Shown: piece by piece, positions 9,453-44,780 of the stretch
Numbering within the stretch: the stretch's first letter is position 1
How the letters are laid out: each line of letters begins with the position of its first letter
Assembly (NCBI GenBank): GCA_017645905.1
Contig: JAGCNO010000180.1
Span: 1-58,026 of the forward strand
Source of the DNA: Prevotella sp.
GTDB taxonomy: Bacteria > Bacteroidota > Bacteroidia > Bacteroidales > Bacteroidaceae
Direction: 5' to 3'
DNA: 58,026 bases
Notes under the pieces: generated by a model
Databases searched by the model: none
The model's input: only the letters and a program-made list of their open reading frames with translations
Told to the model about the DNA's origin: nothing
Position numbers and translations under genes: made by a program

Positions 9453-9557
9453 GTTTGGACGGCTTATTCAAATCGAAAGAACGGCTTTTTCGATTAGAAA
9501 GAACGGCTTTTTCTGAGGGAAAGAACGGCTTTTTCTGACGGAAAGAACGGCTTATTC
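9453..9557. repeat. 22-nt-pitch array of a 17-nt palindrome, array 1 (5 units)
   Basis: Units GAAAGAACGGCTTTTTC at 9475-9491, 9497-9513, 9519-9535 and 9541-9557 (the last with TTATTC), preceded by a degenerate unit at 9453-9469. Each unit is followed by a 5-nt variable spacer, so the pitch is exactly 22 nt. Each unit can fold into a 6-bp hairpin including one G-T pair. It lies between the promoter and the first codon of operon 1. Confidence 0.9.
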
Positions 9558-9580
9558 TCCGAGGGCTGTCTGAGAGTGGT

Positions 9581-11113
9581 ATGAGTGAACGACGGAAAAA
9601 CGTAGTAATCATCGGCGCTGGCCTCGGCGGGCTATTCACTGGAGCCATCCTGGCCAAGGAGGGTTTCGAGGTGACCGTGCTGGAGAAGAACGCTACCATC
9701 GGTGGCGGCCTGCAGTCGTTCCGTCGTTTTGGTGAGACTTTCGATACGGGCATGCACGTCGTGGGAGGCATGCGTCCAGGCGGGAACATCTGGCGCGTCT
9801 GCCGCTACCTGGGCATTGAGGACAAGGCGCGGTTAATGGACGTCGACGATGACTGCACCGACCGGCTCTTCTTTGCCGAAGACCGACGGAGCTACACTTT
9901 GGCGCAGGGACGCAAGGGATTCGTGGAGTCGCTCGTCAGGCAGTTCCCCCATGAGCGCGAGGGGCTGGAGCGATATGTCGACGCCGTGCTGCGCATAGCC
10001 GACAATACCGACCTCTTCAACCTTCGTCCCTCTGTCAGCGGGCCGTCGCTTTTCGCGTCGTCGCCCGACTTTCTCATGGCCGCCACCGACTTTATCACGC
10101 AGTTCACCGACGACCCCAAACTGCAGGCCGTGCTGGCCTATATGAACCCTCTCTACGGCGGACGGCCCGGACAGACACCGGCCTACGTACATGCCATCAT
10201 CAGCACGCTCTACATCGAGGGTGCCAGCCGGTTCGTGGGTGGAAGCAGCCACTTTGCCGACCTCCTGGCAGAAGTTATTTCCAGCCACGGCGGCAACGTC
10301 TTCACGGGCGACGGCGTGGAATGGATCGAGGTAAAAGACCGTCACGTGGAGCATGTACGTACGGTGAAGGGTCGCGTCTATACCGCCAACCACTATATCT
10401 CCGACATTCACCCCTGCACGCTCCTGCAGCTCATGGACGAAAAGGCCTTCCCCAAGGCCTATCGCGAACGCCTGAACAGCATTCCCAATGCCCACTCGGC
10501 CTTCTCGCTTTTCATCAAGCTGAAGCCTGGAACGTTTCCCTACATCAACCATTCGGAGTACTACATGACGCGATATGCCGACGTCTGGAACTTCTCTCGT
10601 ACCGACCGTCCCTGGCCTCTCGGTTTCCTCTTCATGACTCCGCCAGAGGAGCGTTCCCTATGCTGCAATAGCAATGCAGCCACCAAGGCTCTCGTCACTG
10701 CCCCCATGCCCTTCGAGATGGTCGCTCGCTGGGCCGACACCACGCCTGGTCATCGCGGTCCTGACTACGAGGCCTGGAAGGATAATTGCGCCGCTGCCCT
10801 CCTGCGCCAGCTGGAAGACCTTCACCCCGGCTTCTCCTCCTGCATCGAGGCCGTGAACGCTGCCTCGCCTCTTACTATCCGTGACTACTACGGAGCCAAG
10901 GACGGGACCATCTGCGGCTTCAGCAAGGACTGCCGTAACATTGCCCTGTCTCATCTGCCCGTGGTGACGAAGATTGACAACCTGCTCCTCACCGGCCAGA
11001 ACAATAATCTCCACGGCTTCTGTGGCGTTCCCCTCACGGCTATCACCACCTGTGAGGCCCTGTTAGGTACCAACTACGTCATCAACAAAATCAACGCATG
11101 TCCCACTGTCTAA
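9581..11113 (+). CDS. CrtI-like FAD/NAD(P)-dependent oxidoreductase (phytoene desaturase/retinol saturase family)
   Basis: A 510-residue flavoprotein, first gene of operon 1. The N-terminal dinucleotide-binding motif GAGLGG (12-17) is followed by the family signature VLEKNATIGGGLQSF. The C-terminus has the second FAD contact region with the NLLLTGQNNNLHGFCG stretch. Family members desaturate, isomerize or saturate polyene and fatty chains. A role in changing double bonds of an acyl or polyene product fits the neighbours (inference). Paralogous to the protein at 28904. A 19-bp palindrome (10662-10680) lies in the loop where that paralog carries a longer repeat insert. No carotenoid genes are nearby, so a true phytoene substrate is unlikely. 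Confidence 0.85.
   Translation: MSERRKNVVIIGAGLGGLFTGAILAKEGFEVTVLEKNATIGGGLQSFRRFGETFDTGMHVVGGMRPGGNIWRVCRYLGIEDKARLMDVDDDCTDRLFFAEDRRSYTLAQGRKGFVESLVRQFPHEREGLERYVDAVLRIADNTDLFNLRPSVSGPSLFASSPDFLMAATDFITQFTDDPKLQAVLAYMNPLYGGRPGQTPAYVHAIISTLYIEGASRFVGGSSHFADLLAEVISSHGGNVFTGDGVEWIEVKDRHVEHVRTVKGRVYTANHYISDIHPCTLLQLMDEKAFPKAYRERLNSIPNAHSAFSLFIKLKPGTFPYINHSEYYMTRYADVWNFSRTDRPWPLGFLFMTPPEERSLCCNSNAATKALVTAPMPFEMVARWADTTPGHRGPDYEAWKDNCAAALLRQLEDLHPGFSSCIEAVNAASPLTIRDYYGAKDGTICGFSKDCRNIALSHLPVVTKIDNLLLTGQNNNLHGFCGVPLTAITTCEALLGTNYVINKINACPTV
10662..10680. repeat. 19-bp palindrome, copy 2 (in the CrtI-like gene)
   Basis: GCTGCAATAGCAATGCAGC with 6-bp arms, preceded by CTAT-like bases as in copies 3 and 4. 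It encodes the LCCNSNAA stretch. Confidence 0.65.
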
Positions 11114-11943
11114 TCATATCCCTCTGTCTGCTATGCTGCAACAGCGTTGCAGCTATCGCCCAGGTGAACATCTGGGAGGGTACCGATTGCCATAAGCGCG
11201 TGGAACTGAAACCTTACGTTGTGGATAAGGGGAGTGTCGCGGTAGTAGTCTGCCCCGGCGGCAGCTATTTCTGGCACGATATGGAGGTGGAAGGTCACGC
11301 CGTGGCCCGCTGGCTCAATGCCAATGGCATCTCGGCCTTCGTGCTGCGCTACCGAACGGCCTACGTCCCGGCATACGTGTTGCATCACCGCCTGCTCTTT
11401 CGAGGCAACCGATACCCTGACCCGCAGGACGACCTGCGCCAGGCCCTTCGTCATGTTCGTCAGAACGCTACCCGCTATGGTATCAACCCCGACAGTATCG
11501 GTGTGATGGGCTTTTCGGCCGGTGGACATTTGGCGATGTCGGCGGCAGAGCTGTTCCCTCCTGAGGAGCGCCCTGCTTTCGTTGTCCCAGTCTATCCCGT
11601 GGTCAGCATGACCGAACCGTGTACCCACCATCGCTCCCGTCGTGGCCTGCTAGGCGACTCACGTATTGGCAATGAGGAACTGCGTGACCTGCTCTCTCTG
11701 GAGCGTCATGTGCCCAAGGACTGTCCGCCTGTGTTCCTCGTCAACTGCAAGGACGACCCCGTTGTGGACTATCGTAACTCGGCGCTCCTCGACTCTGCTC
11801 TCACCGCCCAGGGCATTGCCCACAAATATATACAGTATTCCACTGGAGGTCACGGCTTTGGAGCCAGCGACACAAAGGGCACGCCCGAGTGCCGTCAGTG
11901 GCGCCAGGAATTTCTCCACTGGCTCTCCCATAACTCCCATTAA
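11098..11943 (+). CDS. Secreted alpha/beta-hydrolase (acetyl-esterase/BD-FAE-like)
   Basis: A 281-residue protein with a signal peptide (about residues 1-21, AIAQ cut). It has an oxyanion-type CPGGSY near 52-57, the nucleophile Ser140 in GFSAGGH, an Asp in CKDDPV (219/220) and His252 in GGHGFG. This is a complete serine hydrolase triad of the esterase/lipase group that includes acetyl xylan esterases. It overlaps the previous gene by 16 nt, so it is co-translated with operon 1 and probably trims or releases an acyl group from the exported product (inference). The signal peptide itself is partly encoded by a copy of the 19-bp palindrome. Confidence 0.82.
   Translation: MSHCLIISLCLLCCNSVAAIAQVNIWEGTDCHKRVELKPYVVDKGSVAVVVCPGGSYFWHDMEVEGHAVARWLNANGISAFVLRYRTAYVPAYVLHHRLLFRGNRYPDPQDDLRQALRHVRQNATRYGINPDSIGVMGFSAGGHLAMSAAELFPPEERPAFVVPVYPVVSMTEPCTHHRSRRGLLGDSRIGNEELRDLLSLERHVPKDCPPVFLVNCKDDPVVDYRNSALLDSALTAQGIAHKYIQYSTGGHGFGASDTKGTPECRQWRQEFLHWLSHNSH
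11135..11153. repeat. 19-bp palindrome, copy 3 (in the esterase signal peptide)
   Basis: GCTGCAACAGCGTTGCAGC with 7-bp perfect arms. It encodes CCNSVAA inside the signal peptide of the esterase, the same residues as in copy 1 of PurL. Confidence 0.7.
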
Positions 11944-11965
11944 TCCCATCACTCCCATTATTTCC

Positions 11966-13102
11966 ATGACGAAAAACCCTAAGTTCGACGACATCCGCCC
12001 CTATTACGAAGAGGAACTCCCCGCTGCCATGAAGCGCATATCCGCAAGCGACGTGTTCCCCCTCCTCGCCTCATACGTATTTCCCGGCATGGACATCGAC
12101 GCCGTTCGTCAGCGAGTATGCTCGTATCGTACCATTCGTGAGTTCCAGCACGACACCATGGTCGAGGTGAACAAGCAAATCATAGCCCGCAGTATCTCGG
12201 ACTTTACCTGCGGCGGTTTGGAGCGTCTCGACCCTAAGAAGCAGTATCTCTATGTGTCGAACCACCGCGATATCATGCTGGATGCCTGCCTGTTACAGTA
12301 CTTTCTTGTCATCAATGGTTTTGAGACTACCGAGATAACTTTCGGTGCTAATCTCATGACTCATCCTGTAGTCATCGATGTGGGAAAGTCCAACAAGATG
12401 TTCCGTGTGGAGCGTCCCGGCGGTGACCTGCGTGAGTTCTACCGCGCCTCGCTCCACCTCTCGGAATACATCCGCTGGTGCATCAAGGAGAAGGGCGAGT
12501 CGGTTTGGATTGCCCAGCGCAACGGGCGAACGAAGGACGGCATTGATGCCACCGACCAGGGCATCATCAAGATGTTCTGCATGAGTGAGCCGAAGGACAA
12601 GATCAAGGCCTTGGCCGAACTGAATATCGTGCCCGTGGCGGTGAGTTACGAGTGGGAATCATGTGACGTGCTGAAGGCTCTGGAGCTTTACCAGTCGCAG
12701 TATGCCCGCTATGTGAAGAAGCCCGGAGAGGACCTCAACAGCATCCTCACAGGAATCATGCAGTATAAGGGCCGGGTACACTTCGAGCTCTGCCAGCCCA
12801 TCACCGCCGATGATCTTGCCAGCTTCGAAGGACTGACTAACAGCGAGTACCATAAAGCAGTTGCCCGTCTGCTCGACCAGCGCATCAATGCCGCCTATCG
12901 CCTCTATCCCAACAATTACATCGCCCATGATCTGCTCTACGGCAACACCCGCTATCGCGAACACTACACCGACGAGCAGTACGAGACTTTCAACGTCCGC
13001 TTGGCCAAGCTCGACCGCTATGCCGAGACTTGCGACCTGGAGCGGCTGAGGGAAATCTTTATAGGTATCTATGCCAACCCTGTGGAAGCATGCAGGAAAT
13101 AA
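11966..13102 (+). CDS. Lysophospholipid acyltransferase-like (PlsC superfamily) protein
   Basis: 378 residues from the ATG at 11966, chosen because the family-like sequence begins there (MTKNPKFDDIRPYYEEELP) and upstream codons read through repeat sequence (tcccat units). Motif 1 reads SNHRDIMLD (His100, Asp106), an HX5D spacing rather than the textbook HX4D. Other conserved parts are the FRVERPGG and IAQRNGRTKDG segments. Members of this group sit in aryl polyene and flexirubin loci, where an acyltransferase is thought to attach the polyene to a lipid. It is likely membrane-associated. The stop overlaps the start of the exporter gene. Confidence 0.8.
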   Translation: MTKNPKFDDIRPYYEEELPAAMKRISASDVFPLLASYVFPGMDIDAVRQRVCSYRTIREFQHDTMVEVNKQIIARSISDFTCGGLERLDPKKQYLYVSNHRDIMLDACLLQYFLVINGFETTEITFGANLMTHPVVIDVGKSNKMFRVERPGGDLREFYRASLHLSEYIRWCIKEKGESVWIAQRNGRTKDGIDATDQGIIKMFCMSEPKDKIKALAELNIVPVAVSYEWESCDVLKALELYQSQYARYVKKPGEDLNSILTGIMQYKGRVHFELCQPITADDLASFEGLTNSEYHKAVARLLDQRINAAYRLYPNNYIAHDLLYGNTRYREHYTDEQYETFNVRLAKLDRYAETCDLERLREIFIGIYANPVEACRK

Positions 13103-15714
13103 TCACAAGGATATATGATGGTTTGCGGGCGCAACGTGGTTTGTGCCTGACGACGCTGCTCATTGTGACGGCAGTACTTGCCTTGTTGCTGTCACGCCAG
13201 CGATACAAAGAGGATATCTCCGATTTCCTGCCGCTTGACAGCAAGTATGGCCAGGCACTAAAGGTTTATCAGGAAGTCTCCGGGGCCAGCCGTATCGTCG
13301 CTCTCGTCTCCTGTACCGACTCAAAGGAATCGTCACCAGACCTTCTGGTGGAGGCTGTTGATGCTTTCTCCACTATTGTCTTGGAACGTGACACGATGGG
13401 CGTCGCCGAGACGATTATGACTCAGATAGATATGGAGCAGATGGAGGAAACAGTGGAATTCCTATACGCGAACATGCCCTATTTCCTTACCGACCGTGAC
13501 TATGCCCGCTTGGACAGCCTTCTTGCCGATGACAGCTACATCTCCCGTCAGCTTGCAGCCGACAAGCAGACACTTATGCTCCCCATGGCGGGCATGATGG
13601 CACAGAACGTTCAGCGCGACCCTCTGAACCTTTTTACACCCTTGTTGACAACACTCCAGCAACGTCAGGCCTCTGTGAGTTACGAGAACTACGACGGGTA
13701 TATCTTCACGCCTGATATGAGTCGTGCTATCGTGCTCATGCAGTCGCCCTACGGCAGTAGCGAGACCAGTAAGAACACCCACCTTCTACGCTTTCTGGAA
13801 GACTGCGCCGCCCAGGCCAGTACCATGTGTCCTGGCGTGGACATCCATTTCACTGGCGGGCCTGTTATCGCCGTGGGCAATGCTAATCAGATTAAGAAAG
13901 ACAGTCTGTTGGCAGTATCGCTCGCCTTGTTGCTCATCGTGGGGCTGCTCTTCTTCGTGTTCCGCAGCATGAGAAACCTTGTGCTCATCGTCTTGTCGAT
14001 AGGGTGGGGATGGCTCTTCGCCATGGGTGTGCTGGCTGTTGTTCACGACAGTGTCTCGGTTATCGTCATCGGCATATCGTCGGTCATCGTGGGCATAGCC
14101 GTCAACTATCCTTTGCACCTCATTGCTCATCTCCGCCATACGCCTGTCGTTCGTCAGGCCCTACGGGAGATTGTTGTGCCGCTTGTCGTGGGAAATATAA
14201 CCACCGTGGGTGCCTTTCTCGCTCTTGTACCGCTGGAGTCGGTGGCCCTTCGTGACCTTGGGCTCTTCAGTTCCTTTCTGTTAGTGGGTACCATCCTCTT
14301 TGTTCTCATATTCTTACCGCAGCTTGTTGTAAGAAGTGAAGGAGGTAAAGAAGTTGAAGAAGTTGAAGGAGGTAGAGGAGTACCTGGTTACCCACGTTGG
14401 ATTCCTGCAGTTATCGCTATGCTGACCCTTGTCTTCGGTTACTTCAGCCTTGATACGACCTTCGATTCGAACATCGCGAACATCAATTATATAAGTGACC
14501 AGCAGCGGCAGGACATGGAGTATCTTGCCAGTCTGACTGCCCAGGGCGAGGCGACGGACGTTACCGATTACCAGCAGTTCCTCTGTTCGCAGGAGGAACA
14601 GCAACACCGCTTGCAGCTATGGAACAATTTCGCCGATCGTTATGGCCAGTCGTTGGAAGACGGTATCCGACAGGCCGCCGCTGCCGAAGGTTTTGCCGAC
14701 GGTACCTTCGACGATTTCATATTCCTACTGCATGAGCGTTTTGAGCCCCAACCATTGGAGTATTTTGCTCCTCTTGTTAGTACCGTTTTTGCACAAGACC
14801 AGATTGTTATTGTGGATGGAGAGACAATTGATATCAAGAATATTAATTCAATGATAGTCAGCAGACTATCCGACGACTTTAACTATATCGGATGGGCTTG
14901 CGGACTCATCGTTTTCCTGTTCCTTTGGTTCTCATTGGGCAGCCTTGAACTGGCTATACTCTCGTTCCTTCCTATGGCTGTCAGTTGGGTATGGATATTG
15001 GGGCTGATGTCTCTGTTTGACATTCATTTCAACTTGGTGAACATCATTCTTGCCACGTTCATCTTCGGTCAGGGCGACGACTACACCATCTTTATGACTG
15101 AGGGCTGCCAGTATGAGTATGCCTACCGTCGGCCGATGCTTGCCAGCTACAAGCAGAGCATCATTATTTCCGCCCTCATCATGTTCATAGGTATTGGCGC
15201 GCTTATCTTCGCCAAACACCCGGCCCTGCGTTCTCTGGCCCAGGTCACCATCGTGGGCATGTTCTCTGTGGTGCTGATGGCGTGGCTGTTGCCGCCGATT
15301 ATCTTCCGTTGGCTGGTGTCCGACCGTAACGGCTACCGACGCCGTCCCCTTTCCTTTTCCCTGTTTTGGCAAAGGCTTCGTGGCGAGCAGCCCGGTAGTG
15401 AGGCCTACCTGCGCCATTTGGTCTACGACCGTTACCGCTACAAGGGCATGGCCATCACTACCGCCGTAGGTCGCAGTCTGCGCAAGGGTTCGCCCCCTAT
15501 ACCACAGGAAGAGTTTCCCTCCGATGACTCGCCCATCACCATCGCCAACAGCGGCTGGGGCGAACAAGCTCTGCTCTTAGCCCTGCAACAGCCCTCGCGC
15601 ACCATCATCGCCATAGAATCTGACCCTGAGCGACTGCTTGTGGCCCGTCATAGTGCCGAAGGCATCGCCCCCAACCTCACCTTTCAAGAGAGGGGAGCGG
15701 CTACGCACCAATAA
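13090..15714 (+). CDS. MMPL/RND-family exporter with a C-terminal Rossmann-like extension
   Basis: 874 residues from the ATG at 13090, which overlaps the previous stop by 13 nt. It has the RND plan: TM1 near 20-38, a periplasmic domain, a bundle of five helices around 275-415, a second periplasmic domain, and a second bundle around 605-760. The second half carries the proton-relay motif GQGDDYT. The first half has GIAVNYPLH, with Asn in the equivalent site. It probably exports the lipid or polyene product. Residues about 780-874 add a soluble domain (ANSGWGEQALLLAL, then AIESDPERLLVARH) resembling the first strands of a class I methyltransferase fold, too short to be complete. A glu/gly-rich repeat insert lies near residue 420. 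Confidence 0.85.
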   Translation: MQEIITRIYDGLRAQRGLCLTTLLIVTAVLALLLSRQRYKEDISDFLPLDSKYGQALKVYQEVSGASRIVALVSCTDSKESSPDLLVEAVDAFSTIVLERDTMGVAETIMTQIDMEQMEETVEFLYANMPYFLTDRDYARLDSLLADDSYISRQLAADKQTLMLPMAGMMAQNVQRDPLNLFTPLLTTLQQRQASVSYENYDGYIFTPDMSRAIVLMQSPYGSSETSKNTHLLRFLEDCAAQASTMCPGVDIHFTGGPVIAVGNANQIKKDSLLAVSLALLLIVGLLFFVFRSMRNLVLIVLSIGWGWLFAMGVLAVVHDSVSVIVIGISSVIVGIAVNYPLHLIAHLRHTPVVRQALREIVVPLVVGNITTVGAFLALVPLESVALRDLGLFSSFLLVGTILFVLIFLPQLVVRSEGGKEVEEVEGGRGVPGYPRWIPAVIAMLTLVFGYFSLDTTFDSNIANINYISDQQRQDMEYLASLTAQGEATDVTDYQQFLCSQEEQQHRLQLWNNFADRYGQSLEDGIRQAAAAEGFADGTFDDFIFLLHERFEPQPLEYFAPLVSTVFAQDQIVIVDGETIDIKNINSMIVSRLSDDFNYIGWACGLIVFLFLWFSLGSLELAILSFLPMAVSWVWILGLMSLFDIHFNLVNIILATFIFGQGDDYTIFMTEGCQYEYAYRRPMLASYKQSIIISALIMFIGIGALIFAKHPALRSLAQVTIVGMFSVVLMAWLLPPIIFRWLVSDRNGYRRRPLSFSLFWQRLRGEQPGSEAYLRHLVYDRYRYKGMAITTAVGRSLRKGSPPIPQEEFPSDDSPITIANSGWGEQALLLALQQPSRTIIAIESDPERLLVARHSAEGIAPNLTFQERGAATHQ
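14335..14383. repeat. GAAGTTGAAG-type short tandem repeat within the exporter gene
   Basis: Degenerate gaagt/gaagga/gaggta units encode the RSEGGKEVEEVEGGRG loop between two membrane segments, a place where an extra hydrophilic loop is tolerated. Confidence 0.6.
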
Positions 15715-15736
15715 ATAAAAGTAACCTTGAAGAATA

Positions 15737-15958
15737 ATGAAAGAAAAAATCCGTCAACTGCTTGAAGAAGCCCTTCCCTTAGTGGACTTCGACTCCGACT
15801 TCCTTTTCAGTGAGCTCGACTCACTGGGCGTGACCACCATTCTCATGCTTCTCTCCGACGAGTTCGGCATCCACCTTGATGCCACCGATGCCACTCCCCG
15901 CAACCTCCGTTCGTTGGACAGCATCGTTGCTATGGTAGAGCAAAAGCTACAGTCATGA
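15737..15958 (+). CDS. Acyl carrier protein
   Basis: A 73-residue acidic protein with the phosphopantetheine attachment motif DSLG (Ser29) placed as in ACPs and three predicted helices. It lies 22 nt after the exporter gene, and its stop overlaps the ligase start (ATGA). It is probably the dedicated carrier for the acyl chain started by the adjacent AMP ligase and extended by the ketosynthase at 20874. Confidence 0.88.
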   Translation: MKEKIRQLLEEALPLVDFDSDFLFSELDSLGVTTILMLLSDEFGIHLDATDATPRNLRSLDSIVAMVEQKLQS

Positions 15959-17319: not shown

Positions 17320-17323
17320 ATTC

Positions 17324-19309: not shown

Positions 19310-20014
19310 TATTCTTTTGGTTATTATTGATCTTTATTGTTTATACGCTATTTGCACAGAAATATTACGGTTGATGGAGTTAATTCTTCTTAATCGGACA
19401 AAGAAAAGGTATCGACGGCCCGTTTTCCGAGTTCTTAGCCGACTGTGAATTGTCAGTTGCCAATGAAAAAGTTTTACAACGACCTCTCTGAGGCTGCGTT
19501 ATTATCCATCCTATCCGTCCCGATTTCAATGGGGCGCATGATGGGGCAGGTAAAGCCTGTGTCGCACAAAGAACGGCTTTTTCTATGGGAAAGAATAGTT
19601 CATTCTCATAGAAAAAGCCGTTCATTCACCCACTTTGCTCCGTTGCGTCGCTGGCCTTTTTCGTATGTAAAGAAATCGGAGAACGCCCTGTTTATGGGCA
19701 TTTTGGGAGGCCGCTATGTGGACTTCACCTGTTTTTGACGATTATAAAAACGGAGCGTTTCCCTCATTCTGGAGGTGACTTGTCGCTCTCAGACCGTCGT
19801 TTTTGCGCATTTTTGCGTTTTTGTGCATGTTTATAGAGCTAAAAAAGCTGCACAAAACGATACTTTTGTGCAACTTTTTGCTCTGGAATGTAGTTTTTGT
19901 AACCCCCTTTTTTCTGTCATTTCTTTTTACATTATTGAGTCAACTATGCTCTGCCTTACTTGCTGCTCCATTTATTCGTTAATAGAAGTTACCTAATATA
20001 ATAAGTTGAAAACT
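19310..20014. other. Long intergenic region between divergent genes
   Basis: About 700 nt without a convincing gene. It contains a three-unit 22-nt-pitch repeat array (19567-19627) and an AT-rich part with repeated tttttgc words near 19795-19900. A 97-codon open frame (19445-19738) crosses the repeats and looks like no protein family, so it is not called. Confidence 0.6.
19567..19627. repeat. 22-nt-pitch array of a 17-nt palindrome, array 2 (3 units)
   Basis: Units at 19567-19583 (forward), 19589-19605 (degenerate, GAAAGAATAGTTCATTC) and 19611-19627 (inverted, GAAAAAGCCGTTCATTC). The pitch stays exactly 22 nt although the third unit is flipped. Confidence 0.85.
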
Positions 20015-20046
20015 TTTGCGTGTTTAACAGAAAATGCTTACCTTTG
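20015..20046 (+). promoter_or_regulatory. Promoter of operon 2 of the lipid/pigment locus
   Basis: TACCTTTG (20039-20046) with TTTG (20015-20018) 20 nt upstream, a near-ideal Bacteroidota promoter. The leader to the start codon at 20146 is about 90 nt and consists largely of heptanucleotide repeats. Confidence 0.8.
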
Positions 20047-20068
20047 CACGCAAAATTAATGCCCAAAG

Positions 20069-20129
20069 CCTAAGGTCTAAGGTCTATAGTCTAAAGTCTA
20101 TGAGTCTAAGGTCAAGGGACTGAGGTCAA
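20069..20129. repeat. Heptanucleotide (CTAAGGT-type) repeat in the operon 2 leader
   Basis: About eight degenerate 7-nt units (ctaaggt, ctaaggt, ctatagt, ctaaagt, then broken units). The same word recurs at 22103-22135 between two genes of the operon and inside the AMP ligase gene near 16538-16570. Confidence 0.8.
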
Positions 20130-20145
20130 ATAAAGAAGACTGAAA

Positions 20146-20877
20146 ATGAAATACGCATTAGTGACGGGCGGCTCCCGAGGTATCGGTAAGGCCGTCGCCC
20201 TGAGGCTGGCCAAGGATGGCTGGCCCGTAGTCATCAACTACCGTAGCAACGAGGAGGCTGCACTGGCCACGAAGGCCGAGATAGAGGCCGCCGGCGGACA
20301 GTGTGAGCTGCTGCCTTTCGACACGTCGAATGGGCGGGAGATAGAGGCCGCCATCGACCGCTGGGAAGAACAGCACCCCGACGACTGGTTTGGTGTCCTG
20401 GTGAACAACGCCGGCGTGCGCCGCGACAACGTGCTCTTCATGATGGGCGAGGACGAGTGGCACCAGGTGCTCGACACGTCGCTCAACGGATTCTTCTACA
20501 TCACCCGCCGGCTGCTGAAGCACATGATGCCCCGCAAACGTGGAGGCCGCATCGTGAACATGGCATCGCTCTCGGGCATAAAGGGAATGCCCGGACAGGC
20601 CAACTACAGTGCCGCCAAGGCTGCCCTCATCGGTGCCACGAAGGCACTGGCACAGGAGGTGGCGCCGCGTAACATCACCGTCAACGCCATCGCCCCGGGA
20701 TTCATCGAGACCGACATGACGCAGGGCCTGCCGCAGGGCGAGCTCATCAAGCTCATCCCTACCGGCCGCTTTGGCCGGCCCGAGGAGGTCGCCGCACTCA
20801 CCGCCTTCCTCGTCAGCGACGAGGCTGCCTACATCACCGGCGAGGTCATCAGCATCAACGGAGGACTGTACACGTGA
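20146..20877 (+). CDS. 3-oxoacyl-ACP reductase (short-chain dehydrogenase)
   Basis: 243 residues. NADP-binding TGGSRGIG at 7-14, NNAG at 87-90, catalytic Ser141, Tyr154 and Lys158 (YSAAK). It reduces the 3-keto group formed by the adjacent ketosynthase. First gene of operon 2. It overlaps the next start as GTGA, a tight coupling that argues for a dedicated role in this pathway rather than the housekeeping FabG. Confidence 0.9.
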   Translation: MKYALVTGGSRGIGKAVALRLAKDGWPVVINYRSNEEAALATKAEIEAAGGQCELLPFDTSNGREIEAAIDRWEEQHPDDWFGVLVNNAGVRRDNVLFMMGEDEWHQVLDTSLNGFFYITRRLLKHMMPRKRGGRIVNMASLSGIKGMPGQANYSAAKAALIGATKALAQEVAPRNITVNAIAPGFIETDMTQGLPQGELIKLIPTGRFGRPEEVAALTAFLVSDEAAYITGEVISINGGLYT

Positions 20878-22135: not shown

Positions 22136-22155
22136 CAATAATATTTTTAAAGTTT

Positions 22156-22590: not shown

Positions 22591-22596
22591 ATTATT

Positions 22597-24513: not shown

Positions 24514-24618
24514 GAAAGAACGGCTTTTTCCCATGGAAAGAACGGCTCTTTCAAATGGAAAGAACGGCTTATTCGCATGGAAAGAACGGCTTATTCGAAG
24601 AGGAAGAACGGCTTAATG
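24514..24618. repeat. 22-nt-pitch array of a 17-nt palindrome, array 3 (5 units)
   Basis: Units at 24514-24530, 24536-24552, 24558-24574, 24580-24596 and 24602-24618, all in forward orientation, the last degenerate. Spacers are CCATG, AAATG, GCATG and GAAGA. It fills the gap between the LicD and DMT genes inside operon 2, so it is transcribed. Confidence 0.9.
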
Positions 24619-30543: not shown

Positions 30544-30648
30544 GAATAAGCCGTTCTTTCTGTTTGAAAGAACGGCTTTTTCTGTTTGGAAGAACGGCTT
30601 TTTCTGTTTGAAAGAACGGCTTATTCTCTTAGAGAGAACGGCTCAAAG
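30544..30648. repeat. 22-nt-pitch array of a 17-nt palindrome, array 4 (5 units)
   Basis: Units at 30544-30560 (inverted), 30566-30582, 30588-30604, 30610-30626 and 30632-30648 (degenerate). Spacers are TGTTT three times and TCTTA. It lies between convergent genes and is followed at once by a second repeat type (30646-30725) also found next to array 5. Confidence 0.9.
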
Positions 30649-30725: not shown

Positions 30726-30730
30726 CTGAG

Positions 30731-33064: not shown

Positions 33065-33067
33065 GAT

Positions 33068-36658: not shown

Positions 36659-36659
36659 A

Positions 36660-36692
36660 ATTCGTGTAATTCGTGTAATTCGTGTAATTCGT
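36660..36692. repeat. ATTCGTGTA 9-nt tandem repeat between susD and the binding-protein gene
   Basis: Three perfect 9-nt units plus a partial unit ending in ttcgtgg. It lies immediately upstream of the binding-protein ATG, in the ribosome-binding region. Confidence 0.8.
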
Positions 36693-36704
36693 GGTTGAGA
36701 AAAC

Positions 36705-38258: not shown

Positions 38259-38306
38259 AATATTTACGATTTACTAATTTACTATTTACGATTTTCGGTT
38301 TTCAAT

Positions 38307-41300
38307 TTAGAACGAAAGATTGAGTCCGATAGTATAGGTGCGAGCCTGCGGGTATACACCGTAGTCAACGCCCGTGTACTGGGTGTTGTGTTTCTGGGTG
38401 TCGTTATCCCATCCGGCACCGATCTCTGGGTCGAAGCCCCAATACTTAGTCCAGGTGATGAGGTTCTCGGCACGACCATAGACACGCAGACGGTTGATAC
38501 CGATGCGGTTGGTAAGGTTGCGAGGCAAGGTGTAGCCTAAGGTGATGTTCTTCAGGCGGAGGTAGCTGCCGTCCTGGATATACATGTCGCTGCACACCCA
38601 GTTCTTTGAATCTCCCAGTGTGGGCACGGTGTTGCTTGTACCTTCACCCGTCCAGCGCTGGAGTACCCAAGTGGGATAGTTACCCGAGGCAATGTCCTGA
38701 CGGTAGGTAGCATCGAAAACATCTACACCTGTAACACCCTGGAAGAAAACACCCAGGTCGAAGTCCTTCCACTCGGCATTGAAATTGAAGCCGAAGGTCC
38801 AGTCAGGGATACCGTTACCAATGTTGGTACGGTCGTCGGAAGTAATCTTTTTGTCGCCATTGGTATCCACGAAACGGAAGTCACCAGGTTTCGATGAGGT
38901 ACCGAATTCGGCATTGTAAGCATCGGCCTCTGCCTGGTTCTGCAAGATGCCGTTGGTCTTATATCCATAGAAGAAGGGGAAGGGCTGCCCGTTCTCGGCA
39001 CGGGTTCCGCCATCGGCAAACTGGCTGATGCCATAGTTCAGGAAGCCAGTGTCGTTACCCAGGTTCTTCAGTTTGTTCTTCAGATAGGAGGCGTTAGCCT
39101 TCACGGCAAAGCGGGCATCGGCAATGTTCCACTTGTAGCCCAGTTCAAATTCCCAACCGCTGTTCTCCATATCACCGACGTTGGCTAGCGGTTTCTTCTC
39201 ACCAACATACGAAGGAATAGGCATGTCGATAATCATGCCGTTGGTCTTCTTCATGAAGTAGTCAACGCTGAAGGTCAGCTGGTTGTTCCAGAAACCGAAG
39301 TCAATACCGATGTCGGTCTGCTCGCTCTCTTCCCACTTCAGGTCTTCATTTGCCAGACGGTCTGCCTTCGAGCCATAGACCATCGAAGCGTTCTGTCCGA
39401 AGTAGTAGTTGCTCGAACCTCCCATAGCCGTCAATGTGGTATAGGCGAAGTCACCGATATTGTCATTACCGTTCTTACCCCAGCTGGCACGTAGCTTCAG
39501 GTTGGTGAGCCAGTCGCGGGTCTGCTCCATGAACTGCTCGTTCATGATGTTCCAGCCTACTGAGAACGAAGGGAATGTTCCGTACTTGTTATTCGAGCCG
39601 AAGCGGCTGGAACCGTCACGGCGGATAGTTGCCTGAATCATGTAACGCTCATCGTAGTTGTAGCTCAGACGACCGAAAAGCGACGAAAGCCTATGCTCGG
39701 TGTAAGGACCTCCCCAAACACCCACGAGGCTCTTAGCACCTGTCACCTTACCGTCGGCATCGGTTGTGAGTTCCAGGTTGCCACCAGTGGTATAGTTGAT
39801 ACTGGGTTTGTCGGGGTTCACCAGGTTCCAGTGTGAGCCGCCCAGTTCGTCACCCTTAGTCTTCAGGGCACTCTGGCCGAGGACCACGCCGATGGTATGC
39901 TTGCCAAAGGTCTTGTCGTAGGTCAGCGTGTTCTCAATCTGCCATGTGGAGTTGTTGCCTTTGTAGGCTGTGGCTTGTGTATGGTCGCTGTTGTTGTTAC
40001 CAGAGAAATAATATTTCTGCAAGGTTGCACCTTCGTAACCCCAGAAGGAAAGCTCGGTGCTATAGGTGAAGTGGTACTTCAATTCATCAAACAGCTGCAG
40101 GTCGATTGAGAACTTTGGCATGAACTTATGGCTCCAGTTCTTGTTAGGGTTGCCCTGCATCATGGCAATGGGGTTGTTCTGCTCTTGATAGCTGCCCACA
40201 TAGCCGGGAATGGTATAGGGATTGCCGTTGGCATCGTAGTAGAGGTCGTAAGCTGAGTAGCGGTCAATCATAGCCTGACCGTAGCGGGGTTCGTCCTTCT
40301 CGTCATAGCCAAGCTGTGTCAGCGTTACGGGAAGTGTAGGAGCCAGGTAGAGAGCCGAGCCAAGGGGAGAACCCCAGGTGGAGTTGGCCTCAACACCCGT
40401 ATTGTGCACACGCATATAAGAGAGGTTCGCACTCACGTCTAAACGGTTCAGGAAGTTGCGCTCCTTGGAGTTGTCAAAGAGGTTGAACTGGTTGTTCGAG
40501 CGGATGGTCAGACGGTCGTAGTTCGACTGTCCGTAGTTACCGCCCACGATACCTTCCTGGTCGAAGTAGCCCAGGGATAGGTAGTAGTTGATTTTCTCCG
40601 AGGCGCCGCTGATGCTCACGTCGTGCTGAGTGATGGGGGCATTGTCGTTGAACAGCAAGTCCTGCCAGTCGGTGCCGAAACCTTTGATGGCATCGCCGTT
40701 GGCATCCACAAGGTTGTAGGGGTCGTTGTAGAGTGGGGAGAGACCGTTCTGTATACGACGCTCGTTCTGCAGGATGGCATAGTCGGTGGCACCCGTCACG
40801 TCGCGCTTCTTCCAGGCACTCTGCCAACCGGTAGAGAAATTGTAGTTGATTTGTGCCTTGCCAATCTTACCCTTCTTCGTGGTGACAAGGATGACACCAT
40901 TGGCTGCACGGGCACCGTAGATGGCTCCTGAGGCAGCATCCTTCAGCACCTCAATCGATTCGATGTCGTTAGGGTTAACACTCTCCATACCGTTCTGGTC
41001 GGTGGGCATACCATCAATGATGTAAAGGGGTTCGGAACTGTTGATGGTTCCGATACCACGAATGCGAATCATCGACTTCGAACCGGGCTGACCAGAGGAA
41101 GAGGTGACATTCACACCTGCGGCCATACCCTTCAGGGCATCCTCGGCACGCAGACGAGTCTTGCCGTCGAGGTCGTCGGCACTCACCTTTGCGATGGAGG
41201 CGGTGACCACGCTCTTCTTCTGAACACCATAGCCGATGACGACAACGTCCTGAAGCGTCTGGGCGTCTTCCTTCATCGTAACGGTCATGCCCCTGCTGGC

Positions 41301-41546
41301 CCTTATCTCTTGAGAGAGGAAGCCAATATAACTAATAATAATAGGTGTACCCTCGCTGACATTCAGCGTGAACTGTCCATCGATGTTGGTGATGGTTCCG
41401 TTCTGAGGGTTGCTTTTCTCGACGACGGAAGCTCCGATGACGGGCTCCCCAAGATCGTCTGTCACAGTTCCCCGGATTCCCTGGGCGTTCGTTGCCATCG
41501 ACACTATCAGCGCCAATAACAACAATAGATACCTGCTTTTTTTCAT
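38307..41546 (-). CDS. SusC/RagA-family TonB-linked outer-membrane transporter
   Basis: 1079 residues from the ATG at 41546, where the signal peptide MKKSRYLLLLLALIV begins (an upstream in-frame ATG adds 15 residues without a signal character). A carboxypeptidase-regulatory-like domain comes first (GIRGTVTDDLGEPVIGASVV), then the plug (DVVVIGYG) and a 22-strand barrel that ends in LNLSF. It imports glucan oligosaccharides, powered by TonB. A TAATTTTG box precedes it. Confidence 0.96.
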   Translation of the reverse strand: MKKSRYLLLLLALIVSMATNAQGIRGTVTDDLGEPVIGASVVEKSNPQNGTITNIDGQFTLNVSEGTPIIISYIGFLSQEIRASRGMTVTMKEDAQTLQDVVVIGYGVQKKSVVTASIAKVSADDLDGKTRLRAEDALKGMAAGVNVTSSSGQPGSKSMIRIRGIGTINSSEPLYIIDGMPTDQNGMESVNPNDIESIEVLKDAASGAIYGARAANGVILVTTKKGKIGKAQINYNFSTGWQSAWKKRDVTGATDYAILQNERRIQNGLSPLYNDPYNLVDANGDAIKGFGTDWQDLLFNDNAPITQHDVSISGASEKINYYLSLGYFDQEGIVGGNYGQSNYDRLTIRSNNQFNLFDNSKERNFLNRLDVSANLSYMRVHNTGVEANSTWGSPLGSALYLAPTLPVTLTQLGYDEKDEPRYGQAMIDRYSAYDLYYDANGNPYTIPGYVGSYQEQNNPIAMMQGNPNKNWSHKFMPKFSIDLQLFDELKYHFTYSTELSFWGYEGATLQKYYFSGNNNSDHTQATAYKGNNSTWQIENTLTYDKTFGKHTIGVVLGQSALKTKGDELGGSHWNLVNPDKPSINYTTGGNLELTTDADGKVTGAKSLVGVWGGPYTEHRLSSLFGRLSYNYDERYMIQATIRRDGSSRFGSNNKYGTFPSFSVGWNIMNEQFMEQTRDWLTNLKLRASWGKNGNDNIGDFAYTTLTAMGGSSNYYFGQNASMVYGSKADRLANEDLKWEESEQTDIGIDFGFWNNQLTFSVDYFMKKTNGMIIDMPIPSYVGEKKPLANVGDMENSGWEFELGYKWNIADARFAVKANASYLKNKLKNLGNDTGFLNYGISQFADGGTRAENGQPFPFFYGYKTNGILQNQAEADAYNAEFGTSSKPGDFRFVDTNGDKKITSDDRTNIGNGIPDWTFGFNFNAEWKDFDLGVFFQGVTGVDVFDATYRQDIASGNYPTWVLQRWTGEGTSNTVPTLGDSKNWVCSDMYIQDGSYLRLKNITLGYTLPRNLTNRIGINRLRVYGRAENLITWTKYWGFDPEIGAGWDNDTQKHNTQYTGVDYGVYPQARTYTIGLNLSF

Positions 41547-41595
41547 AATCTTTTGGTTAATTGTTAATATTTGATTTAGGTTTTGAATCACGCTG

Positions 41596-41603
41596 CAAAA
41601 TTA
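41596..41603 (-). promoter_or_regulatory. -7 box of the glucan-uptake operon promoter
   Basis: TAATTTTG on the minus strand, about 50 nt before the susC ATG. No TTTG is seen at the -33 position, as expected for a promoter that needs an activator. Confidence 0.5.
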
Positions 41604-41697
41604 AGAAAAAAAAGAATGTCTCACGCCTCCATAAATGGAAAAAGTGGATTCTTATATGGGTTTCCGATGACTATATGTATGATTCTCAGTAAAATAC

Positions 41698-41729
41698 AAA
41701 AAGGTATCCAGACGAAAAGAGTGGATACC
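41698..41729 (-). terminator. Terminator of the DUF6377 regulator gene
   Basis: On the minus strand GGTATCCA (8-bp arm, 41722-41729) pairs with TGGATACC (41703-41710) around an 11-nt loop and is followed by TTTTTG. It separates the regulator gene from susC. Confidence 0.8.
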
Positions 41730-41755
41730 ATATAGACTATATGAGACAGTGCCCG

Positions 41756-43453
41756 TTAACTTCCCAGGGCTTTTACCTGTGTCTCAAACTGCTCTCGGTT
41801 GCACAAGGCTCCGTTTTTGATGCGTGCACGGTAGTTGTAGATGGTGTTCACGGAATAGTGCAGGAACTCGGCAATCTTCGACGAGTCCTCGAAACCCAGA
41901 CGGATGAGGGCGAAGATACGTATGTCGGTCGTCAGCCTGTTCTCCTCTTTGGGGTGAATCTGCATCTCGGGTTGAAGCAGGGCGTTGAAGTCGTCGATAA
42001 AGTTGGGGAACAGGTGGAGGAACACGGTGTCGAAGTTCTCGTACAGCTCCTCCAGTTCCTTCTCTTTCAGTTCCGTCGATTTCGATATCTGGAACAGTTC
42101 GTCCAGCTCCTTATTCTTCATCTTCTTGTTCACCATCTTGCGGTAGTTGTCAAGCTTGTCGATATACTGCGAGCAGAGACTCATAAAGCGTCCGATGTAT
42201 TCCTCCTTGACGCGGTTGCTCTCAGTTAATTGACCATTGACCGTTGACAATTGGCCATTCAATGCAGCGAGTTCGTCTTTCTGGATGGAGAGTTGAGAGA
42301 TGAGCGTTGAGAGTTGAGAGTTGAGAGCGGAGAGCTGGGCGTTTGAGGTTCTCAGGTCGTTACGGGCAGCATGCAGCTGCTGGTTACGTCGGTGTACGAG
42401 GAAGAGAACCACGAGCAGCAGCATGGCCAGCACGCTGATGGCTGCTACGGCTATCCACAACTGTGAAGTGGTGCGCTCACTCTGCGACTTGTAGTTATTG
42501 GCAATGTGCGACAGCAGCGGGGCTATCTGCCAGTTACGTTGGCGTGAGCCATAGCGGTTAGCACAGTCGCAGGTGTAGCTGATGTAGCTCGAGGCACGTT
42601 CTATGTCGCCCTGAAGCATCAGCTCGTTGGCCAGTTCCCACATCGACCCCTGGTCCATCACGGCGTTGCGGATATCGGCCAGGACGGACTCCGTCAGCCA
42701 ATGCATCATCTGCAAGGTGTCGCGATGCAGCTTGAACTCGATGTAGCGGTAGAGGGCAACAAGGGCATAGGGATGGGAACCAGGCTCCACTGTCTTGAGC
42801 CACTCGTCGTTGATGCGCATGGATTCTTCGAGGTCGCCATTGTTCTGCGCTTTCTGCTCACGGCGCAGGAAGCAGGACTCACTCGTAGCAGGTAAGTATT
42901 TGAACATCAGCTGTTCATAGTACTGTTCCTTTTGCTGATACATCTTCCGTATGTCATCCAGACGGGTGTAGTAGCTCAGCTCACTATATACATTATTGTA
43001 TGCCTCGTAGTAGGTCCCGAGAGCGGTGTTGGTGGTTTGGGGTGTTGGTGGTTTGGTGGTTTGGGGGATGAGGATGGAGTCAAGGATGTTCAGCGCTTCG
43101 TCGTAAAGTCCGATATTGGTGCTGCGGATGGCCAGCTGAGCCTGGCATTGTACAGCGGCCGACATGTCGCCCATCTGCTCTGCCAGGTCGATACACTGGC
43201 GGAGGAAATAGATGGCAGAGTCGCTGACGAATGGGCGGTAGAGTTCAAACAGTCGGTAGCTCTCGTCGTACTTCTGCCTCCCGCTGGCCTGTTCAAAAGC
43301 CCTACGGGCAACTGCTATCTTTGCTTCACGCTGAGCCACAAAGCGCGGCGACTCGGCTATGGCATTGTCGATTTCCCTGTAACGGCTCTCCAAGTCTTGT
43401 CCCCATGTCATTAAAGGCATGAGCATCAGGAGTATAGCAAGTGTCTTTTTCAT
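41756..43453 (-). CDS. Membrane-bound DUF6377-type regulator with TPR sensor, coiled coil and HTH
   Basis: 565 residues. Signal peptide (MKKTLAILLMLMPLMTWG), a helical TPR-like periplasmic part to about 320, one membrane helix (IAVAAISVLAMLLLVVLFLV, about 330-350), a coiled coil of heptads (about 360-405), and a C-terminal DUF6377 region ending in a LuxR/winged-type HTH (KIAEFLHYSVNTIYNYRARIKN). Such proteins sit beside SusCD genes in Bacteroidota and probably switch them on when glucan fragments bind. It is the only regulator next to this locus; no hybrid two-component gene is present. The coiled coil and a Pro/Thr-rich loop near 130 are encoded by repeats. Confidence 0.82.
   Translation of the reverse strand: MKKTLAILLMLMPLMTWGQDLESRYREIDNAIAESPRFVAQREAKIAVARRAFEQASGRQKYDESYRLFELYRPFVSDSAIYFLRQCIDLAEQMGDMSAAVQCQAQLAIRSTNIGLYDEALNILDSILIPQTTKPPTPQTTNTALGTYYEAYNNVYSELSYYTRLDDIRKMYQQKEQYYEQLMFKYLPATSESCFLRREQKAQNNGDLEESMRINDEWLKTVEPGSHPYALVALYRYIEFKLHRDTLQMMHWLTESVLADIRNAVMDQGSMWELANELMLQGDIERASSYISYTCDCANRYGSRQRNWQIAPLLSHIANNYKSQSERTTSQLWIAVAAISVLAMLLLVVLFLVHRRNQQLHAARNDLRTSNAQLSALNSQLSTLISQLSIQKDELAALNGQLSTVNGQLTESNRVKEEYIGRFMSLCSQYIDKLDNYRKMVNKKMKNKELDELFQISKSTELKEKELEELYENFDTVFLHLFPNFIDDFNALLQPEMQIHPKEENRLTTDIRIFALIRLGFEDSSKIAEFLHYSVNTIYNYRARIKNGALCNREQFETQVKALGS
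42223..42350. repeat. GTTGAGA-type heptanucleotide repeats encoding the regulator coiled coil
   Basis: On the coding strand, units like ctcaact and tcaacgg repeat about every 7 nt. Since 21 nt give seven codons, the translation has exact heptads: LSALNSQ, LSTLISQ, then LSIQKDE, LAALNGQ, LSTVNGQ. Confidence 0.85.
43023..43072. repeat. GGTGTTTGG/GGTGGTTTGG repeat in the regulator gene
   Basis: Reverse complement of the CCCCAAACCACCAA words at 29322-29405. It encodes the PQTTKPPTPQTTN loop between two TPR-like helices. Confidence 0.75.
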
Positions 43454-43474
43454 CTTGAGTCAAGTTGTGCGCTG

Positions 43475-43482
43475 CAAAGATA
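43475..43482 (-). promoter_or_regulatory. -7 box of the DUF6377 regulator promoter
   Basis: TATCTTTG on the minus strand, 22 nt before the ATG at 43453. Confidence 0.55.
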
Positions 43483-43590
43483 TAAATAAAAAAGTAAACT
43501 GCCAGTGCAGATTGTTACTTCCATAGGTTAAAAAAGATTAAACTTTTGAGCTGTGGAAAGCCCTAAGGGGGCTATTTCACGGAAAATAGC

Positions 43591-43598
43591 TACCTTTG
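43591..43598 (+). promoter_or_regulatory. -7 box of the rplU-rpmA promoter
   Basis: TACCTTTG, about 105 nt before rplU. The leader contains an inverted GGCGGTGCACGTCC-like region (43625-43675) with no known motif. Confidence 0.6.
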
Positions 43599-43702
43599 CA
43601 GCCCGAAATTGACAGAATGAGAGTCCGTGGAGGCAGGGTGAAGTGTGTACGGACGTGCACCGCCTCGCGGAAAAACCCCTAAAAATACAATAACAAAAAG
43701 CA

Positions 43703-44020
43703 ATGTACGCAATTGTAGACATCCAGGGTCAGCAGTTCAAGGTCGAGGAGGGCAAGAAGCTCTTCGTTCACCACATGAAGGACGTGGAAGCAGGCAAGAC
43801 TGTTGAATTTGACAAGGTGCTGCTCGTTGATGCAGACGGCACGGTCACGGTAGGCTCACCCACCGTAGAGGGAGCAAAAGTAGTAGTAGAAGTGTTGAAC
43901 CCGCTGGTGAAGGGCGACAAGGTCATCGTCTTCAAGATGAAGCGCCGCAAGGACTCGCGTAAGCGCAACGGTCACCGTGAGCAGTTCACACAGGTTGAAG
44001 TTAAACAAGTAATCGCTTAA
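43703..44020 (+). CDS. rplU: Ribosomal protein L21
   Basis: 105 residues, [20 protein letters not shown] and [19 protein letters not shown], the classic bL21 sequence. Cotranscribed with rpmA after an 18-nt gap with a GGTAAGGAGG ribosome-binding site. Confidence 0.98.
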
Positions 44021-44038
44021 GGTAAGGAGGACTGAATT

Positions 44039-44299
44039 ATGGCACATAAAAAAGGTGTAGGTAGTTCTAAGAACGGACGCGAGAGCGCAGCCCAGCGACT
44101 TGGAGTGAAGATTTGGGGCGGACAGAAGTGTCTGGCCGGTAACATCATCGTCCGCCAGCGCGGTACGAAGCACAATCCCGGTACGGGCGTTGCCATCGGC
44201 AAGGACGACACGCTCTATGCACTCATCGACGGTACGGTGAACTTCCACAAGGGAAAGCGCGACAAGAGCGTTGTCTCCGTAATACCCGCTGAGGCATAA
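44039..44299 (+). CDS. rpmA: Ribosomal protein L27
   Basis: 86 residues, [22 protein letters not shown] and [15 protein letters not shown], the typical bL27 sequence. No N-terminal extension for protease processing is present, as in most Gram-negatives. Confidence 0.98.
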
Positions 44300-44338
44300 C
44301 AATTAATTAAAAAACAACTTACTTCCAAACAAACACAG

Positions 44339-44367
44339 AGCCCTGCTTCCAAACCGGAGGCAGGGCT
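44339..44367 (+). terminator. Terminator of rplU-rpmA
   Basis: AGCCCTGCTTCC pairs with GGAGGCAGGGCT (12 bp including one G-T pair) around a 5-nt loop, 40 nt after the stop, followed by a short T-rich tail. Confidence 0.75.
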
Positions 44368-44780
44368 TCTGCTTATGGACGAATAGGAAAAGATGTCGAA
44401 TCAAAATGGTTAATCCCAAAAGGGTCATTAGGATGGACTCTGAGTTTTAATGACTTACTCTGGGAGAAAGTTGTGATTAAGTGAGAGGAAAGAAAAGGTA
44501 ATTTCCTTTCCCAAGCGTGAGTCCCGAGCGTGAGCAACTTGACCGCATAGCGGCAAAGCGCTCGGCGACGAAGGAGACGCTTGCGTAATGAAATGGAGCA
44601 AGAACGGCTTTTTCTCATAGAAAGAACGGCTTATTCGTTTTGAAAGAACGGCTTTTTCTCATAGAAAGAACGGTTTTTTCTGTGAGAGAGCGCTCGGCAT
44701 CCCGAAAGGTGACACTTGCGTAATGGAATGGAGCAAGAACGGCTCAAAGTCTTGGTACTGTTTCTAAAAACCGATTTGGG
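44368..44780. other. Repeat-filled intergenic region between rpmA and the AraC-type gene
   Basis: No gene. It holds the second repeat type (44468-44545), array 5 of the 22-nt repeat (44598-44702) and a lone unit (44733-44749). A GCGCTCGGC ... CTTGCGTAATGRAATGGAGCAAGAACGGCT block is present twice (44569-44609 and 44690-44743). Confidence 0.7.
44598..44702. repeat. 22-nt-pitch array of a 17-nt palindrome, array 5 (5 units, plus one lone unit)
   Basis: Units at 44598-44614, 44620-44636, 44642-44658, 44664-44680 and a degenerate 44686-44702, with spacers TCATA, GTTTT, TCATA, TGTGA. A single unit GCAAGAACGGCTCAAAG lies at 44733-44749. Confidence 0.9.

Follow-up and report, generated by a model that had tools for sequence, protein, structure and literature searches.

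The stretch of Prevotella sp. DNA analysed here (58,026 nt, called the window below) raises the question of why 17-nt imperfect palindromes stand between its genes in rows with an exact 22-nt pitch, and what such rows might do. A preliminary description had reported five arrays with 23 units and a lone additional unit at 44733. When the window was searched at ≤3 mismatches, the unit was found at 18 places against 0.16 expected, a number reached by none of 100 shuffles. The features are as follows:

9453..9557, plus strand: array 1 with five units, pitch 22 nt, 5 mismatches in the first unit
19567..19627, no strand assigned: array 2 with three units, of which the third is inverted and the middle one a variant, GAAAGAATAGTTCATTC, with 5 mismatches
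24514..24618, plus strand: array 3 with five units, of which the last is degenerate in its right half (4 mismatches)
30544..30648, no strand assigned: array 4 with five units, of which the first is inverted; located between convergent genes
44554..44597, plus strand: 44-nt module (2 x 22), GCGCTCGGCGACG...GACGCTTGCGTAATG, in phase with array 5
44598..44680, plus strand: array 5, four good units
44681..44749, plus strand: 69-nt variant of the 44-nt module, ending in a half-unit (44733-44749), its pitch off by 3

All five arrays were recovered, and the inverted units at 19611 and 30544 are correct, inversions being tolerated. The total has to be lowered to 22 units, because the segment at 44686-44702 carries 9 mismatches and belongs to another repeat module; the supposed lone unit at 44733 is a half-unit only (6 mismatches), located 69 and not 66 nt past the last good unit. 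The last unit of array 4 (30632) is likewise conserved in its left half only, with 6 mismatches. An open reading frame starts at 9581, 23 nt beyond array 1, and the RNase P RNA (8876-9308, minus strand) lies 144 nt away from that array. The 44-nt module also flanks or splits other arrays of the same genome.

The periodicity is not a local accident, for which a variable pitch and units at random distances would have been expected. The unit, with the consensus GAAAGAACGGCTTWTTC, occurs in 858 copies in the 3.40 Mb genome (counted at ≤1 mismatch), and in 627,578 bases of it 166 of the 177 short inter-unit steps were exactly 22 nt at ≤3 mismatches; at ≤4 mismatches this was true of 177 of 189. Arrays contain from one to seven units at ≤3 mismatches, most often four. 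Conservation of the 17-nt core and the non-coding character of the arrays, both proposed previously, were supported. The 5-nt spacers do vary, as had been stated, but not freely, most of them being drawn from a few reverse-complement-related words (TCATA/TATGA, CCATC/GATGG, AAATC/GATTT). Such short, recurring spacers agree with the earlier view that the arrays are not CRISPR-like, as CRISPR spacers are unique and of repeat-like length.

The pitch is shared by several related species that do not share the sequence. A two-unit pattern was found in only 2 of 398 genomes of the genus, our own included, so the sequence is nearly private; viral_contigs contained no exact match to this pattern, and carriage by phages was rejected. 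Nevertheless, when unrelated 17-nt dyads of 16 other species were pooled, 42 matches fell at pitch 22 and 15 at pitch 21, as compared with 0-8 at the remaining pitches from 14 to 43 and 20 at pitch 44, which is twice 22; the thresholds of the pitch detector were picked after first results had been seen. E. coli gave no match at pitch 22 and one at 44. At threshold 28 an earlier pool yielded 48 matches at 22, 26 at 21, 16 at 23, 12 at 20 and 5-11 elsewhere, and the peak was sharper at threshold 30, which underlies the counts given above. An earlier detector of palindromes only had produced a peak at 22 in our genome and none in G439, G003, G009 and G052. G439 was left out of the pool, since its stretches had been selected for matches and some of its contigs are possibly contaminants; its composite elements combine different units at the same pitch, and arrays of different units also have a common pitch inside one genome.

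A pitch of whole helical turns, as would characterize phased operators, was therefore observed across unrelated sequences, and the two-turn phasing suggested at the outset gained independent support from the peaks at 22 and 21. The exceptions were G385, with no peak (4, 4, 3 and 1 matches at pitches 20-23), and G225, G378 and G207, without a match at pitch 22 in 40 kb of each; in G424 pitch 21 (four matches) exceeded pitch 22 (one match). An apparent one-strand bias of the arrays was judged an artefact of the matches listed, among which a known minus-strand array of G124 is missing. The sites of the arrays differ between relatives as well, an array being present in one and absent from the other in two comparisons (window position 45782 with L079, and C70 with L059). 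In a small sample of 16 syntenic intergenic pairs, three had an array in our genome (two own arrays) and none of these three had one in the other species, while the remaining 13 had an array in neither. Phase and spacing persist, and the unit sequence and its site turn over.

The arrays are placed with considerable regularity. In the sample of our genome 69 of 73 were intergenic, and the gaps between neighbouring arrays had a mean of 8.6 kb and a coefficient of variation (CV) of 0.30 (n=48 gaps), against 0.70-0.77 for random intergenic placement and 0.47 as the lowest value in 3000 placements. Only one gap was shorter than 4 kb, where 14.5-15.3 were expected. For this count, seven arrays in which a single unit passed at ≤3 mismatches were sorted beforehand; two (C17:13413 and C70:8024, which have dyads of a different sequence at 22 pitch) were kept and five were dropped, of which C6:235 (decayed) and C30:23866 (cut by the sequence end) are probably real. 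The gene-pair contexts, 29 tandem, 16 divergent and 8 convergent, match the prediction from intergenic length, and the sample showed neither a preference for gene orientation nor enrichment upstream of genes. A special tie to the lipid locus, in or at the edge of which four of the five arrays had been noted, was not supported, as arrays recur about once per 8.6 kb in the sample and track intergenic length. A minimum distance was also observed in G390, where the smallest distance among the sites listed was 7,725, whereas the largest null minimum in 20,000 trials was 4,755; all 36 in-array steps among the matches listed were multiples of 22. In G157 the same was true of 31 of 31 steps among the matches listed, up to 220 bp, but one gap of 2.7 kb separates arrays there, and G350 has 8 detector matches within 40 kb, so the distance is not universal.

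Evenly spaced arrays of this kind, in a rumen Prevotella-like bacterium, suggest protein-bound landmarks that organise the chromosome. We tentatively prefer to regard them as phased operator arrays of a putative dimeric protein, a reading which seems to us quite possible, if somewhat short of probable. Each array would be a row of 17-bp dyad operators, modally four, two helical turns apart on the same face of DNA; a putative homodimeric DNA-binding protein would occupy them in a cooperative manner, perhaps oligomerising or wrapping the array. Each row would then act as a whole, with about one row per 8-9 kb of our genome, and serve as a landmark for chromosome folding or supercoil domains. Because only phase, dyad symmetry and spacing would matter, the unit sequence and the specificity of the protein could drift together, and lost arrays would be replaced by new ones with the architecture preserved. 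A bolder version, which we hold with more reserve, is that of a genus-wide architecture system conserving helical phase and kilobase spacing but not sequence, in which dyad rows with a putative fast-evolving partner protein would mark domains of ~8-10 kb, and new unit families would sweep genomes while the lattice persists. If the arrays are landmarks, they would offer a directly testable handle on how the bacterial chromosome is divided in a genus abundant in gut and rumen.

On the other hand, the spacing could stem from the process of insertion rather than from function. The main alternative, which we consider doubtful though serious, is a mobile tandem palindrome without chromosomal function, spread by a putative trans-acting enzyme that recognises the dyad, with target immunity setting the distances. 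Mu and Tn7 exhibit target immunity, and their ends carry rows of ~22-bp transposase sites. The exclusion zone around arrays in our genome and in G390, that is, a minimum distance between copies, is what a target-immune transposon would leave, and a unit almost private to the species, yet present in hundreds of copies, implies that its dispersal was recent. The presence or absence of arrays between relatives also speaks for such an element. End spacers tend to TCRGA and TCYGA, symmetrically in some of 55 arrays. Against mobility, no fixed termini were seen, nor was a target-site duplication visible in three site comparisons, although flanks were diverged or incomplete, and the number of units per array is variable. 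The search for a Y1-type transposase in our genome returned a single match below the cut-off, whose 2.9 kb locus is devoid of the unit, as are the three Y1 loci of G439. Moreover, a transposase family would not require a single pitch for unrelated dyads unless it were very diverse. Should this alternative be true, the genome-wide spacing would be a record of target immunity.

It is improbable that the repeats work as stem-loops of single-stranded DNA or RNA (cruciforms, mRNA stabilisers or terminators). The families are palindromic, and long complementary arms can be seen by eye in G124 arrays, but position 14 is A in one third of A units, which breaks the stem, and no gene-pair context is preferred by the arrays. 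Linkers between hairpins could be of any length, whereas the pitch is exact and peaks at 21-22 only. Rfam gave no match over the window arrays, its sole gathering-level match in the window being the RNase P RNA.

Quite improbable, too, is that the arrays are ordinary operators in the regulon of one transcription factor. Dyad operators would suit it, some arrays of our genome lie 19-60 nt ahead of start codons, and the L079 array adjoins what we take to be a promoter-like sequence; yet convergent regions are used as their length predicts, upstream regions of genes are not enriched, and regulons are not evenly spaced. Intrinsic bending by phased A/T tracts is highly improbable and was rejected as a general cause, since high predicted curvature occurs in some species only: the model, which uses wedge angles, gave our arrays 0.063 against 0.035 for their shuffles, a mean z of 1.69 for 42 arrays of other species and strong curvature in G124 (z 6.6-10.7), G390 (z 3.9 and 4.4) and some others, but our arrays were at the 59th percentile of own intergenic DNA, only 11 of the 42 exceeded the 95th, and the optimum fell at pitch 20-21, not 22.

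Rows of 17-22 bp sites at about two helical turns are familiar from ArgR boxes, plasmid iterons and the ends of Mu and Tn7. These occupy one or few loci per replicon, in contrast to the hundreds of arrays evenly spread here. REP/BIME elements and REPINs are, like our arrays, short intergenic palindromes in hundreds of copies, with lineage-specific sequence and mosaic clusters, but the exact pitch and the exclusion distance set our arrays apart. REP/BIME palindromes are described as tagged GTAG or CGTC (PMC3733652), and neither tag is present in our consensus. Identity with REP, whose cognate RAYT gene has the repeat on its flanks, was rejected, as no RAYT linked to the unit was found: the sub-threshold match to Y1_Tnp is the only one in our genome, and G003 has none although 22-pitch arrays are present. 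The BrickBuilt MITE of Porphyromonas gingivalis, as far as its description goes, is also an intergenic tandem repeat of Bacteroidota, but consists of 23-nt repeats without spacers at 19 loci, with a leader and a tail bearing small inverted-repeat ends (PMC4596501).

The nearest described repeat is, by its description, PINSR of P. intermedia, a 188-bp sequence of one clade, of which two strains carry 177 and 184 copies. It is likewise intergenic, abundant, from the Prevotella lineage, and judged non-coding; in the section of the 2015 paper that describes it, its authors reported no terminal inverted repeats and left its function open, and this section mentions neither a 22-bp phase nor the spacing. 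The landmark reading might explain PINSR. G124 (two contigs, ~42.6% GC in 40 kb, 151+141 matches) may belong to the PINSR group; its repeats show dyads at 22 pitch, with a unit that differs from that of the window.

The preliminary description of the window had placed 23 copies of a 17-nt imperfect palindrome (GAAAGAACGGCTTTTTC, here the A unit) in five arrays at an exact 22-nt pitch. The five arrays stood, with 22 units when diverged members are included (18 places at up to three mismatches, against 0.16 expected); the sequence at 44686, taken for a fifth unit in the last array, has nine mismatches to the unit, and the lone unit at 44733 is a half-unit. Across the source genome (3,401,236 bases, 181 contigs, of which the window is contig C56), 858 copies were found at up to one mismatch. 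We read 627,578 bases of this genome, the window included; many sampled stretches were picked for holding matches and ended just past one, so that densities are biased and gaps perhaps too, and the least biased piece is contig C23 (118.5 kb, continuous).

The pitch itself was confirmed in this sample. Steps below 100 nt among 249 units (up to three mismatches) were 22 (166), 43 (4), 44 (5), 66 (1) and 69 nt (1), no unit-to-unit step fell between 69 and 4,092 nt, and at up to four mismatches 177 of 189 steps were of 22 nt. All four 43-nt steps enclose a dyad of the AATTCTCTAGAGAATT type. Neighbouring units share orientation in 161 of 166 pairs, and arrays most often hold four units (32 of 72, up to three mismatches). 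The core consensus is an imperfect dyad, G-A-A-A-G-A-A-C-G-G-C-T-T-(T/A)-T-T-C. In 55 arrays, spacers form a small vocabulary which includes reverse-complement pairs (TCATA 29, CCATC 13, AAATC 9, CCATA 9, TCATG 9, TATGA 7, GATGG 7, GATTT 6), and the outermost spacers tend to TCRGA at the left end of an array and to TCYGA at the right end. Other elements were found near or among the arrays, or elsewhere in the genome.

Other features of the source genome
Window 8876-9308, minus strand: RNase P RNA, bacterial class A (188.7 bits), 144 nt from the first array
Window 44554-44597, also contigs C23, C16, C20, C27 and C100: second repeat module GCGCTCGGCGACGAAGGAGACGCTTGCGTAATG, 44 nt, in phase within or beside several arrays
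Contig C9, near 12.97 kb: array of AAACNACGTCGNCGTTT-like dyads at 21-nt pitch
Contig C40 (stretch L098, 987-1724), minus strand: RAYT-like Y1 protein, sub-threshold Pfam match

Sequence similar to the AAACNACGTCGNCGTTT-like dyads directly abuts A arrays in contigs C30 and C80. Six non-A arrays occur in the sample, three of them (C16:40956, C45:4767, C30:17475) flanked on both sides by A units of the same contig and three lying ahead of the first A array in the stretch read. Near the RAYT-like gene stand palindromes unlike the A unit, such as CCCAGGGCGTTGCCCAGGG; gene and palindromes may together form a separate REP system.

Of 73 array centres, 69 fall within predicted intergenic regions at least 120 nt long (genes called by our hexamer-based caller), such regions making up 10.5% of the sequence. 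Gene pairs around the 53 arrays with both neighbours known are tandem (29), divergent (16) or convergent (8), which tracks the respective intergenic lengths (22,190, 12,696 and 4,631 nt); thus nothing suggests that promoters or terminators are preferred, and the proposed link to the lipid locus finds no support in array placement across the sample.

Along the chromosome the arrays are evenly spaced. When A and non-A arrays are taken together, 48 within-contig gaps average 8.64 kb (3.54 to 14.05 kb) with a CV of 0.30. Random placement in the identical intergenic regions gave 0.70 (length-weighted) or 0.77 (uniform), never below 0.47 or 0.51 in 3000 trials, and 14.5 or 15.3 gaps shorter than 4 kb, against one observed. 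Contig C23 by itself (13 gaps) has a CV of 0.25. Without the six non-A arrays the CV would be 0.36 instead of 0.30, and the longest gap 22.7 instead of 14.1 kb; this interleaving is only suggestive, because one of them also creates the shortest gap.

A detector blind to sequence (three intergenic, palindromic 17-mers at pitch p, similar directly or inverted) was applied to 1,367,139 bases from 16 further congeneric species. Pooled matches numbered 42 at pitch 22, 15 at 21 and 20 at 44, with 0-8 at other pitches from 14 to 43. At least one match at 22 was found in 13 of the 16 species, unevenly: eight in G157 and in G350 (the denser G350 within 40 kb), six in G003, four in G016 and in G124, and one to three each in G385, G390, G024, G010, G306, G424, G009 and G052. 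Pitch 21 (four matches) exceeds 22 in G424, G385 gave no pitch peak, and G225, G378 and G207 had no match at 22. The same detector found none at 22 and one at 44 in 200 kb of E. coli K-12, and none at 22 and one at 21 in two other Bacteroidales families, where 40 kb is too small to judge.

Examples of unit families in other species
G157: ATTCTAGGGGCTAGAAT and GTAAAGTGGCACTTTTC
G390: TAAAAGTGGCACTTTTG, core resembling the second G157 family
G424: GTTCCCAAGCTGGGAAT
G003: TTATCACGCTTAGATAA, pitch 21

Two single-contig genomes allowed whole-genome analysis. G390 (2.73 Mb) holds 121 forward and 110 reverse unit matches (up to two mismatches); among the 100 matches listed, all forward and forming 64 sites over 2.27 Mb, in-array steps were 22 (23), 44 (7) and 66 (6), and sites were at least 7,725 nt apart. 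Uniform placement predicts 12 gaps below 7.5 kb, its minimum never exceeding 4,755 in 20,000 trials. For G157 (3.45 Mb) a looser 15-nt pattern gave 57+59 matches (reversed control, 9). Among the 100 listed, forming 59 sites, 31 of 31 in-array steps were multiples of 22 (including 132, 176, 198 and 220), and one gap (2,683) was below 6.5 kb, against 6.1 expected (P 0.01).

Retention of the pitch over ten units and its recurrence with unrelated dyads point to double-stranded DNA, one face of which would be read, hence by a protein. Even spacing regardless of transcription points to either a chromosome-scale role, the arrays being protein-bound landmarks, or a mobile tandem palindrome with target immunity. 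ArgR, Mu, Tn7 and iterons offer comparisons. We prefer the chromosome-scale role by a small margin, because dyads of unrelated sequence keep to a single pitch, both inside one genome and from genome to genome, and because neither array terminus nor duplication was found at the array sites compared. Hairpins or static bending predicted free linkers or universal curvature, neither of which was observed.

Arrays differ between relatives. Stretch L079 (G438 contig C46; 94.5% identity to the window over 6.2 kb) has an array beside a promoter-like region, an array that the window lacks at the corresponding site near 45782; an array in contig C70 faces a short intergenic region in the relative's stretch L059; and where stretch L080 has four units, contig C6 retains a single unit and a fragment of its neighbour, then unrelated sequence. 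Of three syntenic regions that bear an array in the source genome, none bears one in the other species. The exact two-unit pattern was present in 2 of 398 genus genomes (an even draw from the larger genus), the source included, and in genome contigs at large in at least eight stretches from at least three named records, among them MAGs from a rumen, from a sheep abomasum (Prevotella) and from a yak reticulum (Bacteroidaceae); further occurrences exist. Array-bearing contigs are few in G438 and G440, which may be contaminated. G439 bears four-unit composites at exact 22-nt pitch, the palindrome AAAACAASTTGTTTT standing on either side of two A-like units.

PINSR of P. intermedia is described as a 188-bp intergenic repeat of unknown function with 177 and 184 copies (PMC4755523); judging from two contigs, GC and match number, G124 may belong to its group. 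Related work covers BrickBuilt (PMC4596501), RepRanger (PMC12306157), GTAG/CGTC repeats (PMC3733652) and PMC5771137. Among the records listed by searches of the open-access literature, no description of a 22-bp phase or of array spacing appeared.

In stretch L091 (G009) and the G439 stretches, the commonest 11-mers include another repeat class, heptanucleotide tandem repeats such as (TCAACTG)n or (TCAATGG)n. Several contigs of the source genome (C16, C18, C5, C6, C80) have an array less than about 500 bases from their end, so arrays may be a cause of fragmented short-read assemblies of this species.
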